A stretch of 64,000 bases of DNA, taken from assembly GCF_003008615.1 (NCBI RefSeq), contig NZ_CP027657.1, positions 2,232,001 to 2,296,000 of the forward strand. Direction: 5' to 3'. The DNA is from Pseudomonas mendocina. Its GTDB lineage: Bacteria; Pseudomonadota; Gammaproteobacteria; Pseudomonadales; Pseudomonadaceae. Positions 18,891 through 27,003 of this stretch are shown here, in pieces; position 1 is the first letter of the stretch, and every line of letters begins with the position of its first letter. A program made the position numbers and the translations under genes. A model generated the notes under the pieces. It worked only from the letters and a program-made list of their open reading frames with translations, searched no databases and was not told the origin of the DNA.

Positions 18891-18992
18891 GAGCGGCAGT
18901 CGTGTCGGAGGGGGACGTAGCTCATCATGGCGCCTGCCAGCGGTCAACCGCGATTGACCGGCCGCCGCTGCCTGCGTAGCCTTCTCGCTTTC

Positions 18993-19156
18993 GAGGTTCT
19001 TTCCGGCAAGCCGCCGGGGAGCTAAGAGGGAACAGGGTCGATGCCCTGGCTGCCCCCGCAACTGTAAACGGTTATGCCCTTCGTTAAACCACTGCCAACC
19101 GGCGGGAAGGTGAAGGGATGCGCGCCGCGCAAGCCGTGAGCCAGGAGACCTGCCTC
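18993..19156 (+). ncRNA. Cobalamin (AdoCbl-class) riboswitch
   Basis: The region contains the conserved core elements in order: GCTAAGAGGGAAC (19021-19033), GGCTGCCCCCGCAACTGTAA (from 19048), an ACCACTGCC-type segment (19088-19096), GGCGGGAAGG and the B12 box CCAGGAGACCTGCC (19141-19154). It precedes cobW by about 110 bases, and the intervening sequence includes a TCGGA/TCCGA hairpin that could be part of the expression platform. It should repress cobW-cobN and downstream genes when B12 is plentiful. The divergent cobE-cobM block has no riboswitch on its own strand. Confidence 0.95.
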
Positions 19157-19265
19157 GACAATCAGCCACTTGCTCGGACGGGGTGATCCGACGCGGCCAG
19201 CACGCCCCTGCGTGCCCGCCTGCCCATACCCGTCCGCCGAACTTAACGACGCCACGGGGCCCTCC

Positions 19266-20452: not shown

Positions 20453-23400
20453 ATGCATTTACTGCGCACCCAGCCCGGCGCTCAACTGCCGGCCGACAGC
20501 ATCGCCGACCTCGGCCAGACGCCTGCCGATTTGGTGATCCTGTGCACGGGCGATTCGCACTTGTCGTTGCTGACCGAAGCCGCCCGGCAACTGCCGAACG
20601 ACTATCCCAGCCTGCGCCTGGCCAGCCCGGCACAGCTGAGTAACAACGCCTCGGTGGACTACTACGTCGAGCAGGTGCTGCAACATGCCAAGGTCATCCT
20701 GATCTCGGTGCATGGCGGGGTCAGCTACTGGCGCTACGGTGTGGAGCGTCTGGTTGAGCTGGGCGCGCGCGGCGCCACGGTGATCATGGTGCCCGGCGAC
20801 GACAAGCCCGACCCGGAGCTGAATGCGCTCGGTAACGTTGCTGAAGAAGACAGCCAACGCCTCTGGCAGTACCTGCGCCAGGGCGGCTTGGAGAATGCCT
20901 GCCAGTTGTTCCGCTGCATCGGCAGCCGTTGGCTGGGCCGCGACGACACGTGGCAGGAGCCGCAACCGCTGCCGCGCGTCGGCCTCTATCACCCGCAGCG
21001 CAGCCCGGCGGCGCTGGCTGACTGGCAGGCGCAGTGGCAGCCGGAGACGCCCGTGGTGGCGCTGCTGTTCTATCGCAACCATGTGCAATCGGCGAACACC
21101 GCCTTCGTCGATACCTTTTGCCAGCACCTCATCGTGCAGGGCCTCAACCCGCTGCCGATTGCCGTGGCCAGCCTCAAGGAACCTGCATGCCTGGAACAGG
21201 TGCAGGCCTGGCTGGACGAAACTAACGCCGCGCTGATCATCAACACCACCGGCTTCGCCCTGTCCAACCCCGAGGCGCCACAGGCGCGGGTGTTCCGTCG
21301 CGATATCCCGGTGCTGCAGGCCATCTGCTCGCTGGACAACCAGGCGCAGTGGCAGGCCAGCGCCCAGGGCCTGGGCTCGCGCGATCTAGCCATGCACGTA
21401 GTGCTGCCCGAGCTGGATGGCCGGCTGATCGGTACCGCCATCAGCTTCAAGGGGCTGGCCTGGCGTAGCGAGCGCAGCCAGAGCGACGTGGTGTGCTACC
21501 AGGCGCATGAACCGGGCATGTCTCACGTCGCAGAACTGGCGCGTAACTGGTGTCAGTTGGCGATCAAAAGCAACGATCAGAAGCGAATCGGCCTGATCCT
21601 GGCCAACTACCCGACCCGCGACGGCCGCATCGGCAACGGCGTCGGCCTGGATACACCGGCTGCCGCCCTGAATATCCTCCGCGCCCTGAAGGCCCAGGGG
21701 TATCCGGTGGATAACCTGCCGGACAGCGGCACCGCACTTGTCCACAGCCTGCTCGGCGGCGTCACCAACGATCTCGACGGCCTCGATACACGGCCTTGCG
21801 CGCAAAGCTTGGCGCTGGACGACTACCTGGCGTTTTTCCACAGCCTACTCGCTGCCAACCAGCAGGCAGTGCGCGAACGCTGGGGTGAGCCGCAGGATGA
21901 CCCGATGTTCCGCAGTGGGCGGATGATGGTCGCCGGCCTGCGCTTCGGCCTGACCTTCGTTGGCATCCAGCCGGCGCGCGGTTATCAGCTCGACCCGGCG
22001 GCGGTGTACCACGACCCCGATCTGGTGCCGCCGCACGGCTATATCGCCTTTTACGCCTGGCTGCGCACGGCCTTTGTCGCTGATGCACTGATCCACGTTG
22101 GCAAACATGGAAATCTGGAATGGCTGCCGGGCAAGAGCGTCGGCCTGTCCGAGGGCTGCTGGCCGCAGGCGCTGATTGGCCCGCTGCCGAATATCTACCC
22201 CTTTATCGTCAACGACCCGGGCGAGGGCGCGCAGGCCAAGCGGCGTACCCAGGCGGTGATCATCGACCACCTGATGCCGCCGCTGACCCGCGCCGAAAGC
22301 TACGGCCCGCTACGCGATCTGGAGCGGCTTGCCGACGAGTACTACGACGCCAGCCAGCTCGACCAGCGCCGCGCTGTCGAGCTGCGTGGCGAGATCCTGG
22401 CCAAGGTGCGCGAAGCCAGCCTCGACCGCGAGCTGGGCCTGCAGCTCAATGACGATGCCGACAGCTGGCTACCGCAGCTCGACGCCTACCTGTGCGACCT
22501 CAAGGAATCGCAGATTCGCGATGGCCTGCATGTGTTCGGCGAGTCGCCCGCCGGGCAACTGCGCCGCGACACCCTGCTGGCGCTGCTGCGCATTCCCCGT
22601 GGCGATGGACAGGGCGCCAATGCCAGCCTGCTGCGCGCTCTGACCCGTGGCCTGGAGCTGGGCTTCGATCCGCTGGATTGCGATATGGGCCAGCCTTGGG
22701 AGGGGCTGCGCCCACAGGCCTTGCAGGCTGTGGATAACAGTCTGTGGCGCACTGTCGGTGACACCCGCGAACGCCTGGAACTGTTGGCGCTGCGGCTGAT
22801 CGAGCAGCGCCTGGCAGGGGAGCATAGCGAAGCGTTTGGCGCCGAGGTGGCGCTGATCCTCGACGGCCTGGCCGAGCATATCGCGCCGCTGCTCGATGCC
22901 TGTGGCGACGCCGAGATGGGCGGCCTGCTGGCGGCACTGGAGGGGCGTTTCGTCCCAGCCGGGCCGAGTGGCGCACCGAGTCGTGGTCGCCTCGACGTGC
23001 TGCCCACCGGGCGCAACTTCTTTACCGTCGACGTGCGGCATCTGCCCACGCCCACCGCCTGGCGCCTCGGAGTGCAAGCGGCGGATCGCCTGCTGGAGCG
23101 CCACCTGCAGGACGAGGGCGACCATCTACGTCAGCTCGGCCTGTCGGTATGGGGCACGGCAACCATGCGCACCGGTGGCGACGATATTGCCCAGGCCCTG
23201 GCTTTGATGGGCGTGCGCCCGGTGTGGCAGCCCGGCAGCCAGCGCGTCGAGCGCTTCGAGGTGTTGCCGCTGGAACAGCTTGGTCGACCCCGGGTGGATG
23301 TGACTCTGCGCGTGTCAGGCTTCTTCCGCGATGCCTTCAGCAACCTGATTCGCCTGTTCGACGAGGCCGTGCAGGCAGTGATCGAACTGGACGAGCCGGA

Positions 23401-24199
23401 AGACATGAACCCGCTGTCGGCGCGGGTCTGGCGCGAGTCGCTGTCGCTCCAGGACAGCGGCTTGGATGAAGCCGAAGCACGGCGCCAGGCTGGCTGGCGG
23501 GTGTTCGGCGCCAAGCCGGGGGCCTATGGCGCCGGAGTGCAGAACGCCATCGAGGAGCGTCTGTGGCAGAGCCGTGCCGACCTGGCCGAGGTCTACCTCA
23601 ACTGGGGCGGTTACGCCTACGGCAGCGGCGCCGAGGGCGCGCCCGCGCGGCAGCGCTTCGTCGAGCGCCTGGAGCAGATGCAGGCGGTGCTGCACAACCA
23701 GGACAACCGTGAGCACGACATCCTCGATTCCAACGACTACTACCAGTTCCAGGGCGGCATGCTGGCGGCGGTGGAAACCCTACGTGGGCTCAAGGTGGCC
23801 AGCTACTTTGGCGACAACAGCCAGCCGGACACGCCGCGCATTCGCAGCCTCAAGGAAGAGCTGAGCCGCGTGGTGCGTGCCCGCGCTGCCAACCCCAAGT
23901 GGATCGAAGGCATGAAGCGCCACGGCTACAAGGGCGCCTTCGAGCTGGCCGCGACCATCGACTACCTGTTCGCCTTCGACGCCACCAGCGAACTGGTCGA
24001 TGGCCACCAGTACGCGCTGCTCACCGATGCCTACCTGCTCGACAAGGACACCCGCGACTTTATCCAGCAGCACAACCCCGGCGCGCTCAACGATATCCTC
24101 GAACGCCTGCTGGAAGCCCAGCAGCGCGGCTTGTGGGAGAATCCCGGCGAATACCGAGAGGCGCTGGAGAATCTGCTGCTCGATAGCGAGGAAAGCTGA
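20453..24199 (+). CDS. cobN: Cobaltochelatase large subunit CobN
   Basis: CobN is the hydrogenobyrinic acid a,c-diamide-binding subunit that receives cobalt. The 1248-residue length and family blocks [97 protein letters not shown] and [17 protein letters not shown] are all present. It is followed by a repeat-rich gap and the ATPase component of the same enzyme. No separate cobS or cobT gene is in the window. An exact DnaA-box 9-mer lies at 22729-22737. Confidence 0.98.
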   Translation: [1248 protein letters not shown]

Positions 24200-24548
24200 T
24201 GCGCGTGCTTTTTCTCCCCTCTCCCATTCATGGGAGAGGGGCCGGGGGAGAGGGTTTATCCGGTGACGCCGAGCCCGTAGGGTGGGTTAGCCGCCTGTCG
24301 CCGTGTCTGACCGGCTCACCGAAGTGGTTGCGGCGTAACCCACCATTGGCGCCACACGATGTATCGCCTGGTGGGTTACGCGGCGCGCTACGTTTTTCTG
24401 CAGATATAAGACCGGCGTTCTGCGCCGCTAACCCACCCTACGGGTGCAGCGTGCCCATTGTAGGAGGCGCTTCAGCGGCGACATGCTCGCGGCTAAAGCC
24501 CCTCCCACAAAAGCCAGGTGCGACCGTTCACCTCCACGGATCACTGCC
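24200..24548. repeat. Repeat-filled spacer between cobN and the chelatase ATPase gene
   Basis: No gene is supported. The spacer has three kinds of palindromes: a CCCCTCTCCCA/TGGGAGAGGGG hairpin (24216-24241), a nested pair with an 18-bp outer arm (24274-24291 and 24427-24444, CCCGTAGGGTGGGTTAGC) and a 13-bp inner arm (24333-24345 and 24369-24381), and two opposed REP elements (24460-24481 and 24487-24508). Confidence 0.85.
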
Positions 24549-25550
24549 ATGACCGAACATCATTTCCCCCTCGCCGCCGTGGTCGGCGCCGATTCGCTGA
24601 AGCTGGCGCTGTGCCTGGCGGCCATCGACCCAGCCATCGGTGGGGTGCTGATCGAAGGGCCGCGCGGTATGGCCAAGTCGACCCTGGCGCGTGGTCTGGC
24701 CGATCTGCTGGACGGTGGACGCTTCGTCACCCTGCCGCTGGGGGCGAGCGAGGAGCGCATCGTCGGCACCCTGGATCTGGACGCCGCGCTGGGCGAGGGG
24801 CGGGCGCAGTTTTCCCCAGGCTTGCTGGCTCGCGCCGACGATGGCGTGCTGTATGTCGATGAGGTCAACCTGCTGCCGGATCATCTGGTCGACCTGCTGC
24901 TCGATGCTGCTGCTAGCGGCGTCAACCATGTCGAGCGTGACGGCATTTCCCACCGGCATGCCGCGCGCTTCGTGCTGATCGGTACCATGAATGCCGAGGA
25001 AGGCGAACTGCGCCCGCAACTGCTCGACCGTTTCGGCCTCAACCTGGCCCTCGATGGTCAGCCGCAGCCGGCCGAGCGCGCCGAGATTGTCCGTCGCCGG
25101 CTGGCCTTCGATGCCGACCCTGCTGCCTTTCTGCAGCGCTGGCAAACCGAGCAGGCTGCCCTCGCGACCCGTTGCCAGAAAGCCCGCCATCGCCTGGCCG
25201 ATATCCCGCTGGATGACACCGCCCTAGGCGAGATCAGCCAGCGCTGCTTCGCCGCTGGCGTCGACGGCCTGCGCGCCGATCTGGTCTGGCTGCGCGCTGC
25301 CCGCGCCCATGCCGCCTGGCGTGGCGCAGCGGGCATCGAGCCTGTGGATATCGAGGCGGTGGAGGACTTCGTCCTGCGCCATCGCCGTCGCCAGCTACAA
25401 CCGCCGGCTGCCACACCGCCCGAGCAGAATCAGGCGCCGCAGCAGGTGCAGGAACAGAGCCAGGGCGAAGGGCAGTGGGGCGAGCTGCCGGCGCAGCCGC
25501 AGGCCATGGGCGAGCGACGCGTGCCGCCGCGCTGGCCAAAAAAGTCCTGA
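24549..25550 (+). CDS. chlD: ChlI-like AAA+ ATPase subunit of cobaltochelatase (zero-frame product of the chlD-type gene)
   Basis: The 333-residue zero-frame product is a Mg-chelatase-type AAA+ ATPase: Walker A GPRGMAKST (residues 37-45), the LPLGASEERIVGTLDLDAAL block, Walker B LYVDEVNLL (101-109), and sensor TMNAEEGELRPQLLDRFGL. From about residue 277 it continues into a Pro/Gln/Glu-rich linker typical of ChlD, not of ChlI. It ends WPKKS at a stop placed two codons after an A AAA AAG slippery sequence. CobN-containing genomes without cobST often use ChlI/ChlD-type partners, so the role is ATP-driven cobalt insertion with CobN. Start at 24549 follows the repeat region; the upstream in-frame extension is repeat sequence. 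Confidence 0.93.
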   Translation: MTEHHFPLAAVVGADSLKLALCLAAIDPAIGGVLIEGPRGMAKSTLARGLADLLDGGRFVTLPLGASEERIVGTLDLDAALGEGRAQFSPGLLARADDGVLYVDEVNLLPDHLVDLLLDAAASGVNHVERDGISHRHAARFVLIGTMNAEEGELRPQLLDRFGLNLALDGQPQPAERAEIVRRRLAFDADPAAFLQRWQTEQAALATRCQKARHRLADIPLDDTALGEISQRCFAAGVDGLRADLVWLRAARAHAAWRGAAGIEPVDIEAVEDFVLRHRRRQLQPPAATPPEQNQAPQQVQEQSQGEGQWGELPAQPQAMGERRVPPRWPKKS

Positions 25551-26242
25551 GCATCCGCCCGCGCACAGCCACAGGCGCGGATGCCCGCAACCGGCCCGGA
25601 CGACTCAGCGGCGGCCTGCGTGGCGCCGCCTGCAGCGGTGCGGACGGGCGTATCGATTGGCCGGCGACCCTGCGCCAGGGCCGACCGCAACGCCGCGAAC
25701 AGTTGGTGCTGCGCCCGCGCAGCCAGCAGGCCGAGGAACTCTGGTTGGTGTTGGTCGATGCCTCCGCTTCCACCCGTCGCCATGGTGCACTGAGCCGGGC
25801 CAAGGGCGTGCTCGCCGAGCTGTTCGACAGCGCCTATCGCCAGCGTGCGCGCCTGGCCGTGCTGCAGGCCGGTGGCCGCGAGGCGCAATGGCTGTGGCAG
25901 GGGGGCAAGGCTAGCGCTGAGCTACACCGCTGGCTGCACGAGCTGGGCGCGGGCGGTGGCACGCCGCTGCTCGATGCGCTGAATCAGGCGGGTGACTGGC
26001 TGTCGCGTCGGCAACGAGGGAAGCCGAGCGAACGCCAGCGCCTGCTGATCCTCACCGATGGTCGCCTGCGTGACCTGCCAAACCTGGCGCCGCTGCCGTG
26101 CCCAACCCTGCTGCTCGACACCGAACGTGCGCCCATCCGCCTGGGTCGCGCCCGGCAACTGGCGCAGGCGTTGGAAGCCGACTACCACCATATCGACGAC
26201 CTAGCGCCCGGCGCGCCGGGCCGCACCTGGAGAACCCCATGA
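25475..26242 (+). CDS. chlD: vWA-domain part of ChlD-like chelatase subunit, probably made by -1 frameshift from the ATPase gene
   Basis: This frame encodes a von Willebrand A domain with the MIDAS motif DASAS and the LTDGR segment. It has only a weak GTG start (25475) embedded in the ATPase gene, and its first 23 residues merely read the linker in the wrong frame. Entering it instead by a -1 shift at 25538-25544 joins K332 of the ATPase to VLSIRPRTATG and gives a continuous 564-residue AAA-linker-vWA protein, the normal ChlD architecture (24549-25544 joined to 25544-26242). I favour that reading. The stop overlaps the cobF start as ATGA. If translated alone from GTG it would be 255 residues. 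Confidence 0.88.
   Translation: MGRAAGAAAGHGRATRAAALAKKVLSIRPRTATGADARNRPGRLSGGLRGAACSGADGRIDWPATLRQGRPQRREQLVLRPRSQQAEELWLVLVDASASTRRHGALSRAKGVLAELFDSAYRQRARLAVLQAGGREAQWLWQGGKASAELHRWLHELGAGGGTPLLDALNQAGDWLSRRQRGKPSERQRLLILTDGRLRDLPNLAPLPCPTLLLDTERAPIRLGRARQLAQALEADYHHIDDLAPGAPGRTWRTP
25538..25584 (+). promoter_or_regulatory. dnaX-type programmed -1 ribosomal frameshift signal
   Basis: AAAAAAG at 25538-25544 is in the phase A AAA AAG relative to the ATPase frame, the most efficient bacterial slippery heptamer. Six bases later a stem begins: GCATCCGC (25551-25558) pairs perfectly with GCGGATGC (25577-25584), with further GCGC pairing possible inside the loop. The zero-frame stop (25548-25550) lies in the spacer. 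No clear upstream Shine-Dalgarno stimulator is seen. The -1 frame is exactly the vWA frame. Confidence 0.88.
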
Positions 26243-27003
26243 AAACCCTGCTGCTGGTCGGCATCGGCGCCGGCGACCCGGACTACATCACCTATCAGGC
26301 GATCAAGGCGTTGCGTCGCAGTGACGTGATCTTCCTGATGGACAAGGGCGCGGCCAAGCACAAGCTCAACGCCTTGCGCCGCGAGATCTGCGCGCGCTTT
26401 TTGGACGGCCACACGCCACGCTTCGCCGAAGGTCTGCAGCCTGAGCGCGAGCGCGAGGCAGCGGACTACCGCGCCAGCGTCGACGAACTCAACCGCGACA
26501 AACAGGCGGTGTTCGAGCAACTGATCGACGAGCAGATGGCCGATGGCGAAACGGCGGCCTTTATGGTCTGGGGCGACCCGTCGCTGTACGACAGCAGCAT
26601 CCGCATCATCGAGGCCATCGCCGCGCGCCGTAGCGACTTCACCTATGACGTGATCCCCGGTATCACCAGCCTGCAGGCGCTGACCGCGCGCCACCGCATC
26701 CCGCTCAACAGCATCGGCCGCGCCGTGGAGATCACCACCGGCCGACTACTTGCCGAGGGCTGGCCGCAAGGTGTGGACAGCGTGGCAGTGATGCTCGACG
26801 CCAAGGACACCTACCGGCGGTTTACTGGTCAGGGGCTGACCATTTATTGGGGCGCCTATGTCGGCACTGCCGATGAAATCCTGATCGCCGGCCCGCTGGA
26901 TGAGGTGGCCGAACGCATCGCCACCACCCGCGCCGAAGCGCGTGAGCGTAATGGGTGGATCATGGATAGTTATCTGTTAAGGATAGATAGTACGGAGGAG
27001 TGA
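26239..27003 (+). CDS. cobF: Precorrin-6A synthase (deacetylating)
   Basis: CobF methylates C-1 of the corrin ring with loss of acetate, giving precorrin-6A in the oxygen-dependent pathway. The 254-residue methyltransferase has GIGAGDPDYITYQAIKAL near the N-terminus, MVWGDPSLYDSSIRI and VIPGITSLQALTARHRIPLN. Its ATG overlaps the stop of the vWA frame (ATGA at 26239-26242), so it is translationally coupled to production of the chelatase subunit. It is the last gene of the riboswitch-led block. Confidence 0.96.
   Translation: MKTLLLVGIGAGDPDYITYQAIKALRRSDVIFLMDKGAAKHKLNALRREICARFLDGHTPRFAEGLQPEREREAADYRASVDELNRDKQAVFEQLIDEQMADGETAAFMVWGDPSLYDSSIRIIEAIAARRSDFTYDVIPGITSLQALTARHRIPLNSIGRAVEITTGRLLAEGWPQGVDSVAVMLDAKDTYRRFTGQGLTIYWGAYVGTADEILIAGPLDEVAERIATTRAEARERNGWIMDSYLLRIDSTEE

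Follow-up and report, generated by a model that had tools for sequence, protein, structure and literature searches.

Beside cobN, the DNA analysed here (the window, a 64-kb part of a 5.77-Mb single-contig genome) carries an AAA+ ATPase frame that ends one codon after the sequence A AAA AAG, and a -1 frame that runs on from the same place into a vWA domain. The question is whether these frames represent two genes, a damaged gene, or one gene read in two ways. Judged from the sequence and its relatives, we favor the last reading with a probability of roughly 0.94: the gene would be a frameshifted chlD (fs-chlD), giving both a ChlI-like and a ChlD-like subunit for CobN. Frameshifting in chlD is real, well supported and already known. 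A reading of the same DNA made from the sequence alone (the sequence-only reading) had treated the mechanism as proposed in the literature, and it has in fact been published for Pseudomonas (PMC3711429, PMC5009743). Here and below, these two papers and PMC9227772 are cited from parts of their text.

According to the proposed mechanism, ribosomes reading straight on would produce a 333-residue AAA+ small subunit, ending one codon past A AAA AAG. A stem-loop would hold the ribosome at the heptamer, where tRNA-Lys would re-pair from AAG to AAA and slip back by one base, and the slipped ribosomes would make a 564-residue medium subunit consisting of AAA+ and vWA domains. Small and medium subunits would then assemble as an ATPase motor driving the adjacent CobN in cobalt insertion, a step of the aerobic vitamin B12 pathway. 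We infer the ribosomal nature of the slippage, its rate, and the service of both products to CobN; the observations are given in the following sections.

Organization of the chlD locus

The gene run begins with a cobalamin riboswitch, the sole Rfam match above the gathering score within the window, followed in order by cobW (TIGR02475, 541.5 bits), cobN, chlD, and cobF (Table 1). The adjacent cobN, as named earlier, scored well above its family cut-off. In a scan of named genomes, the best-matching loci were those of Pseudomonas mendocina, P. oleovorans, and allies, with 93-96% protein identity. The spacer between cobN and chlD (24200-24548) contains palindromic stretches, read by eye, which resemble Pseudomonas repetitive extragenic elements.

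The zero frame of chlD reads from ATG to TGA and has the 3' end CGC TGG CCA AAA AAG TCC TGA, with the junction in CCA AAA AAG TCC TGA. Against TIGR02030 (BchI-ChlI) its protein scored 322.8 bits (cut-off 467), and its first 332 residues double as the N-terminus of the long product. Joined at the heptamer, the two frames give 332+232 = 564 residues (AAA+ plus vWA), confirming both translations expected beforehand, a ChlI-like one of 333 and a ChlD-like one of 564 residues. The putative cobaltochelatase family TIGR02442 (fused form) was the top-scoring NCBIfam family for the 564-residue product, yet with 477.8 bits the score remained under the curated membership cut-off of 779.45. The DASAS motif of the vWA domain is presumably of the MIDAS type. 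As listed, the -1 open reading frame spans 25475-26242 and ends with TGA at 26240-26242. The coordinates of the sequence-only reading for the frames, the phase of the heptamer, the 8-bp stem after a 6-nt spacer, and the -1 frame were right wherever checked.

The stop of the -1 frame overlaps the ATG of cobF at 26239 (ATGA), and a coupling of cobF translation to the shift had been proposed. The overlap holds for the window but not as a general feature: ATGA is found at the -1 frame stop in only 17 of 138 same-genus loci. We therefore do not count this overlap as a general part of the frameshift device, and coupling of cobF as a general feature is not supported.

Table 1. Positions of the features of the chlD locus in the window.
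Feature	Position	Strand	Observation
Cobalamin riboswitch, ahead of cobW-cobN-chlD-cobF	18977..19171	+	RF00174, 108.2 bits
cobN, cobaltochelatase large subunit	20453..24199	+	TIGR02257, 1716.9 bits (cut-off 822)
chlD zero-frame ORF, ChlI-like AAA+ ATPase, 333 aa	24549..25550	+	PF17863, 58.6 bits; PF07728, 44.1; PF01078, 36.4
GTG, sole candidate start (ATG/GTG/TTG) of the open -1 frame ahead of the heptamer; shares bases with a zero-frame Trp codon	25475..25477	+	frame open to the heptamer
A AAA AAG, slippery heptamer	25538..25544	+	in phase in 138/141 same-genus loci
-1 frame after the shift, 232 residues, vWA domain with DASAS motif	25544..26242	+	PF13519, 41.1 bits
Zero-frame stop TGA, one codon past the heptamer	25548..25550	+	3 nt after the heptamer in 135/138 loci
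Stem-loop (arms 25551-25558 and 25577-25584), putative stimulator	25551..25584	+	perfect 8 bp, spacer 6 nt
cobF, precorrin-6A synthase, ATG overlapping the -1 frame stop	26239..27003	+	TIGR02434, 331 bits (cut-off 195.8)

Conservation of the slippery heptamer and the zero-frame stop

AAAAAAG occurs once in the window, counting both strands, compared to a shuffle mean of 1.30, and the heptamer by itself is thus not unusual there. Relatives were drawn from a larger group as a genus sample of 149 genomes, including the window's own. We found chlD in 142 of these, while the remaining seven gave weak matches only (E around 1e-8). The junction was analysed in 141 loci; one genome (G076), whose chlD runs off the contig, was left out. 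When the last 60 nt ahead of the zero-frame stop were searched, an in-phase heptamer was present in 138 of the 141 loci, which as same-genus relatives are related sequences and not independent samples. No further AAAAAAG occurs in the 227,700 nt of the 138 heptamer-bearing chlD genes. It is this conservation, together with the lack of any other copy in the same genes, that places the junction above chance. Alignments by tblastn stop at residue 329-333 in 140 of the 141 same-genus loci. The scan of named genomes yielded 52 loci, of which seven were actinobacterial and not analysed; the in-phase heptamer with a stop one codon later was found in all of the other 45, assigned to Pseudomonas, Stutzerimonas, or gammaproteobacterial metagenome, some of which may be the same species as genomes in the genus sample.

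At two zero-frame third positions the heptamer fixes an A that is otherwise the less usual base: CCA accounts for 515 of 4465 Pro codons and AAA for 529 of 1511 Lys codons in the chlD genes. The zero-frame stop follows after 3 nt in 135 of the 138 loci (after 21 nt in two, immediately in one) and is TAG in 88, TGA in 47, and TAA in three; its place is kept, its identity is not. Directly after the heptamer, CC is found in 130 of 138 loci, whereas the window has UC; in E. coli, CC at this position is described as the dinucleotide most prone to shifting (PMC5009743). Two tRNA-Lys genes were found, both with anticodon UUU, in a pattern search that could miss a CUU tRNA with different flanks.

The three loci lacking the heptamer (L046, L154, and L155) all have an interrupted chlD, indicating that loss of the signal goes with an interrupted gene. 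Relatives that had lost the heptamer and kept two open frames, which would have spoken against frameshifting, were not seen among the 141 loci. L046 (genome G052) reads C AAA AAG and has an interrupted -1 frame, and cobN of the same genome is in two pieces, one of them with a stop, which suggests either decay of the pathway or assembly errors. In L154 and L155, from assemblies that are 86% and 95% complete, chlD is in pieces; cobN is intact in the genome of the former and in three pieces in that of the latter. Assembly errors may account for the broken chlD in all three cases.

Spacing and pairing of the putative stimulatory stem-loop

In the window, the two arms, GCATCCGC at 25551-25558 and GCGGATGC at 25577-25584, enclose 18 bases. 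The folding energy of this stem is unremarkable (z -0.36 against dinucleotide shuffles, -0.73 against synonymous recoding) and lends it no support in the window; the support comes from comparison. The best inverted repeat starts 5 nt (83 loci) or 6 nt (51 loci) past the heptamer in 134 of the 138 loci, compared to 288 of 1380 control sequences in which the -1 frame was recoded synonymously. When a stem score of at least 7.5 was required in addition, the corresponding counts were 120 of 138 loci and 87 of 1380 recodings. Each locus was also compared with 100 synonymously recoded -1 frames; folding was better than the recoding mean in 137 of 138 loci, with a mean z of -1.85 and 112 loci below -1. 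The conservation check proposed earlier for pseudomonads was thus positive for heptamer and stem alike.

Pairing was counted in a gap-free class of 124 loci (110 distinct sequences), in which 88.8% of the cells were paired in register, compared to 33-50% when one arm was slid by 1-3 positions. Since this class had been picked by the register of each locus's own best stem, the other 14 of the 138 loci being listed and left uncounted, we recounted with all 138 loci (134 distinct sequences). The paired fraction decreased from 0.888 to 0.841 and was still far above the 0.32-0.50 obtained with slid arms. Among the 110 distinct sequences, one pair changes from C-G (63) to U-A (34) with 13 U-G in between, and in the gap-free class eight pairs display at least one double change versus 4-6 in the slid controls; as the sequences are related, these compensatory changes are not independent events. 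In the lower stem most pairs are almost constant and therefore uninformative either way. The most diverged loci, L152 and L153, have kept the heptamer, and the standard stem is missing there. By its position and conserved pairing, the stem is a downstream RNA structure and a putative stimulator of the shift. Taken together, the A AAA AAG phase, the six As, the spacing of 5-6 nt, and the conserved stem fit ribosomal slippage by tRNA-Lys.

CobN and its possible partners

chlD and a cobN scoring over the cut-off were both present in the same 142 genomes and both missing from the same seven of the 149 (G014, G041, G042, G060, G069, G082, and G138), so that the two genes come and go together. Two of these seven contain CobN-like sequences far under the cobN cut-off (G060:C4:633806-635170 and G082:C79:34544-36679), the open frames having 1491 and 1448 codons, respectively.

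A search of the whole genome for a separate chlI, cobS, or cobT had been named as a check on the sequence-only reading. The part concerning chlI held: no second chlI was found in the window's own genome, where the next ChlI-like matches are 33% and 28% identical and, judged by their neighbor genes, look like MoxR-like ATPases. For cobS and cobT the search turned up, outside the window and beside a sulfotransferase gene, a divergent tandem pair of CobS/CobT-like genes (C1:3,803,622-3,806,131; L157:1023-3532). Were this pair the true partner of CobN, the chlD shift would be dispensable. We regard this as very unlikely. The tandem arrangement and scores of 387.3 bits for CobS (TIGR01650) and 243.6 bits for CobT (TIGR01651) speak in its favor, but both scores are below the curated cut-offs of 558.55 and 759.05, respectively. 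CobS-like matches of more than 380 bits, matches of 76-129 bits being left out of the count, occur in 8 of the 149 genomes, namely in 5 of the 142 with cobN and in 3 of the 7 without an over-cut-off cobN. CobS-like genes thus do not follow cobN, whereas chlD does so without exception in this sample, and the distribution does not support the pair as a substitute partner, although in the window's own genome it may contribute. Its genes may have functions that do not involve CobN. When the DNA of the pair was compared to phage records, one weak match was obtained, to a Roseobacter phage CobS gene; a comparison of the junction DNA with a plasmid collection at 'near' sensitivity gave no match.

Possible independent starts of the vWA frame

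Alternatively, chlD could be two separate genes, with translation of the vWA protein initiating on its own, internally or by coupling, at GTG 25475 or at a later codon. This GTG does lie in an open -1 frame, and at least 132 of the 138 loci have an NTG 63 nt ahead of the heptamer (GTG in 52, ATG in 45, CTG in 20, TTG in 15). However, this NTG overlaps a zero-frame Trp codon, and an ATG, GTG, or TTG at this position with the -1 frame open to the heptamer occurs in only 59 of 138 loci, which argues against GTG 25475 as a general route. A -1-frame stop lies within the 63 nt upstream of the heptamer in 60 of 138 loci, and 68 of 138 have no upstream -1-frame start at all. As had been claimed from the sequence, the vWA frame lacks a convincing start of its own, in that no independent start is conserved. 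Between the heptamer and the vWA core (in six of the 138 loci the core motif was not recognized and the first 60 codons were used), some ATG, GTG, or TTG is present in 126 of 138 loci, but an ATG is among them in only 16, and starts this late would lose conserved residues past the junction. Between stem and core, 43% of the differences in the -1 frame are at third codon positions and 27% at second ones (1500 sequence pairs), as expected for translation straight from the junction, a modest signal. Under separate initiation, neither the conserved heptamer nor its spacing of 5-6 nt to the stem would be needed, and we consider two genes highly improbable.

Transcriptional slippage and loci outside the genus

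Slippage of RNA polymerase at the A run, giving mRNAs with an extra or a missing A that are read normally, is just as improbable as separate initiation. Six As are a short run for transcriptional slippage. The run is exactly six in 136 of the 138 loci, and its phase and the G behind it are retained, which makes this route unlikely; the route also leaves the conserved stem at ribosomal spacing without a role. On the other side, RNA polymerase can slip on A runs, a more distant locus, L158, has ten As at the same place, and Thermus dnaX uses such slippage (PMC5009743).

L158 belongs to a class sample of 274 genomes, in which 17 matches were found at 1e-40; one is the window's own genome, leaving 16 loci outside the genus. 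Both domains lie in one frame in six of these (L160, L163, and L165-L168), and five have a ChlI-like stretch with a second AAA+ stretch behind it (L169-L173). In four, the frame changes by -1 directly behind an A run and the stop is one codon on (A10G in L158, A7G in L161 and L162, A6G in L164), and one is ambiguous (L159). The mixture indicates that fused, split, and frameshifted forms coexist among these 16 gammaproteobacterial loci. The six fused loci would also be compatible with a simple frameshift mutation, or an error of sequencing or assembly, in one chlD gene of the window. This explanation, like that of a pseudogene, is practically ruled out by the same junction in 138 of 141 relatives and by the interrupted chlD in the remaining three, two of whose genomes have an interrupted cobN as well.

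Relation to known frameshifted genes

The frameshifted chlD family, to which we assign the gene, is in print. Antonov 2013 describes 23 magnesium-chelatase fs-genes as one cluster from six genera including Pseudomonas, states that annotation splits the frameshifted family in two, and gives frameshifting in E. coli of 63, 40, and 10% for cassettes of the family with 11, 9, and 7 As, the text not giving the genus of each (PMC3711429). Atkins 2016 names Pseudomonas, describes the A_AAA_AAR site as being under purifying selection, and prints a stem of P. protegens (PMC5009743). Kuznetsov 2022, citing Antonov 2020, states that the shift may let one chlD make both cobalt chelatase subunits (PMC9227772). 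The window agrees with the published cases in family and genus, in its A-rich site for a -1 shift, in two annotated ORFs for ChlI-like and ChlD-like products, and in a cobN genome without chlI (PMC3711429, PMC9227772), and it differs in nothing essential; the 2013 cassettes carry 7, 9, or 11 As (PMC3711429), whereas the window has A6G with a stem. In the literature covered, we found no frameshift measurement on the exact cassette of the window, those measured having the longer A runs. A literature search for PA2942 gave no paper.

The magnesium chelatase gene of P. protegens shares the A_AAA_AAR site and a stem that opens GGCATCCGCCC...GGGCGGATGCC, as in many of the loci examined here, while the window stem has fewer perfect pairs (8). 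According to the review, the stem sequence is not strongly conserved (PMC5009743); in our loci most lower pairs are near-invariant and others covary. With E. coli dnaX the window has in common the A AAA AAG slip site and a downstream hairpin (PMC5009743, PMC3711429). In contrast to dnaX, which has an upstream Shine-Dalgarno-like stimulator (PMC3711429), a Shine-Dalgarno-like 4-mer at -20 to -4 occurs in only 30 of 138 chlD loci, so that the working of chlD would be dnaX-like without this part. Moreover, the shift leads to the shorter product in dnaX and to the longer one in chlD. CobNST systems with separate cobS and cobT carry out the same reaction and are likewise divided into a small AAA+, a medium vWA, and a large subunit (PMC9227772); in the window the motor subunits are of the ChlI/ChlD type and would come from one gene.

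For the Pseudomonas stem, Atkins 2016 raises triplex formation and binding of divalent cations (PMC5009743). The near-invariant lower stem observed here would agree with a site for a ligand or a metal but shows none. That the shift is tuned by stem stability, or by a metal or cofactor bound to the stem, with the ratio of small to medium subunit responding to the supply of cobalt or B12, appears unlikely to us.

With the shift, the family, and even a Pseudomonas stem already in print, the discovery value is modest. The present comparison adds the counts in the genus sample, the stem spacing measured against recoded controls, the compensatory changes, and the local nature of the overlap with the next gene; these counts were not found in the parts of PMC3711429, PMC5009743, and PMC9227772 that we cite from. 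Conservation, spacing, and compensatory changes make chlD a well-supported example of bacterial frameshifting and a convenient system for work on subunit stoichiometry, in which a single gene would be able to provide a molecular motor with two of its subunits at a fixed ratio.
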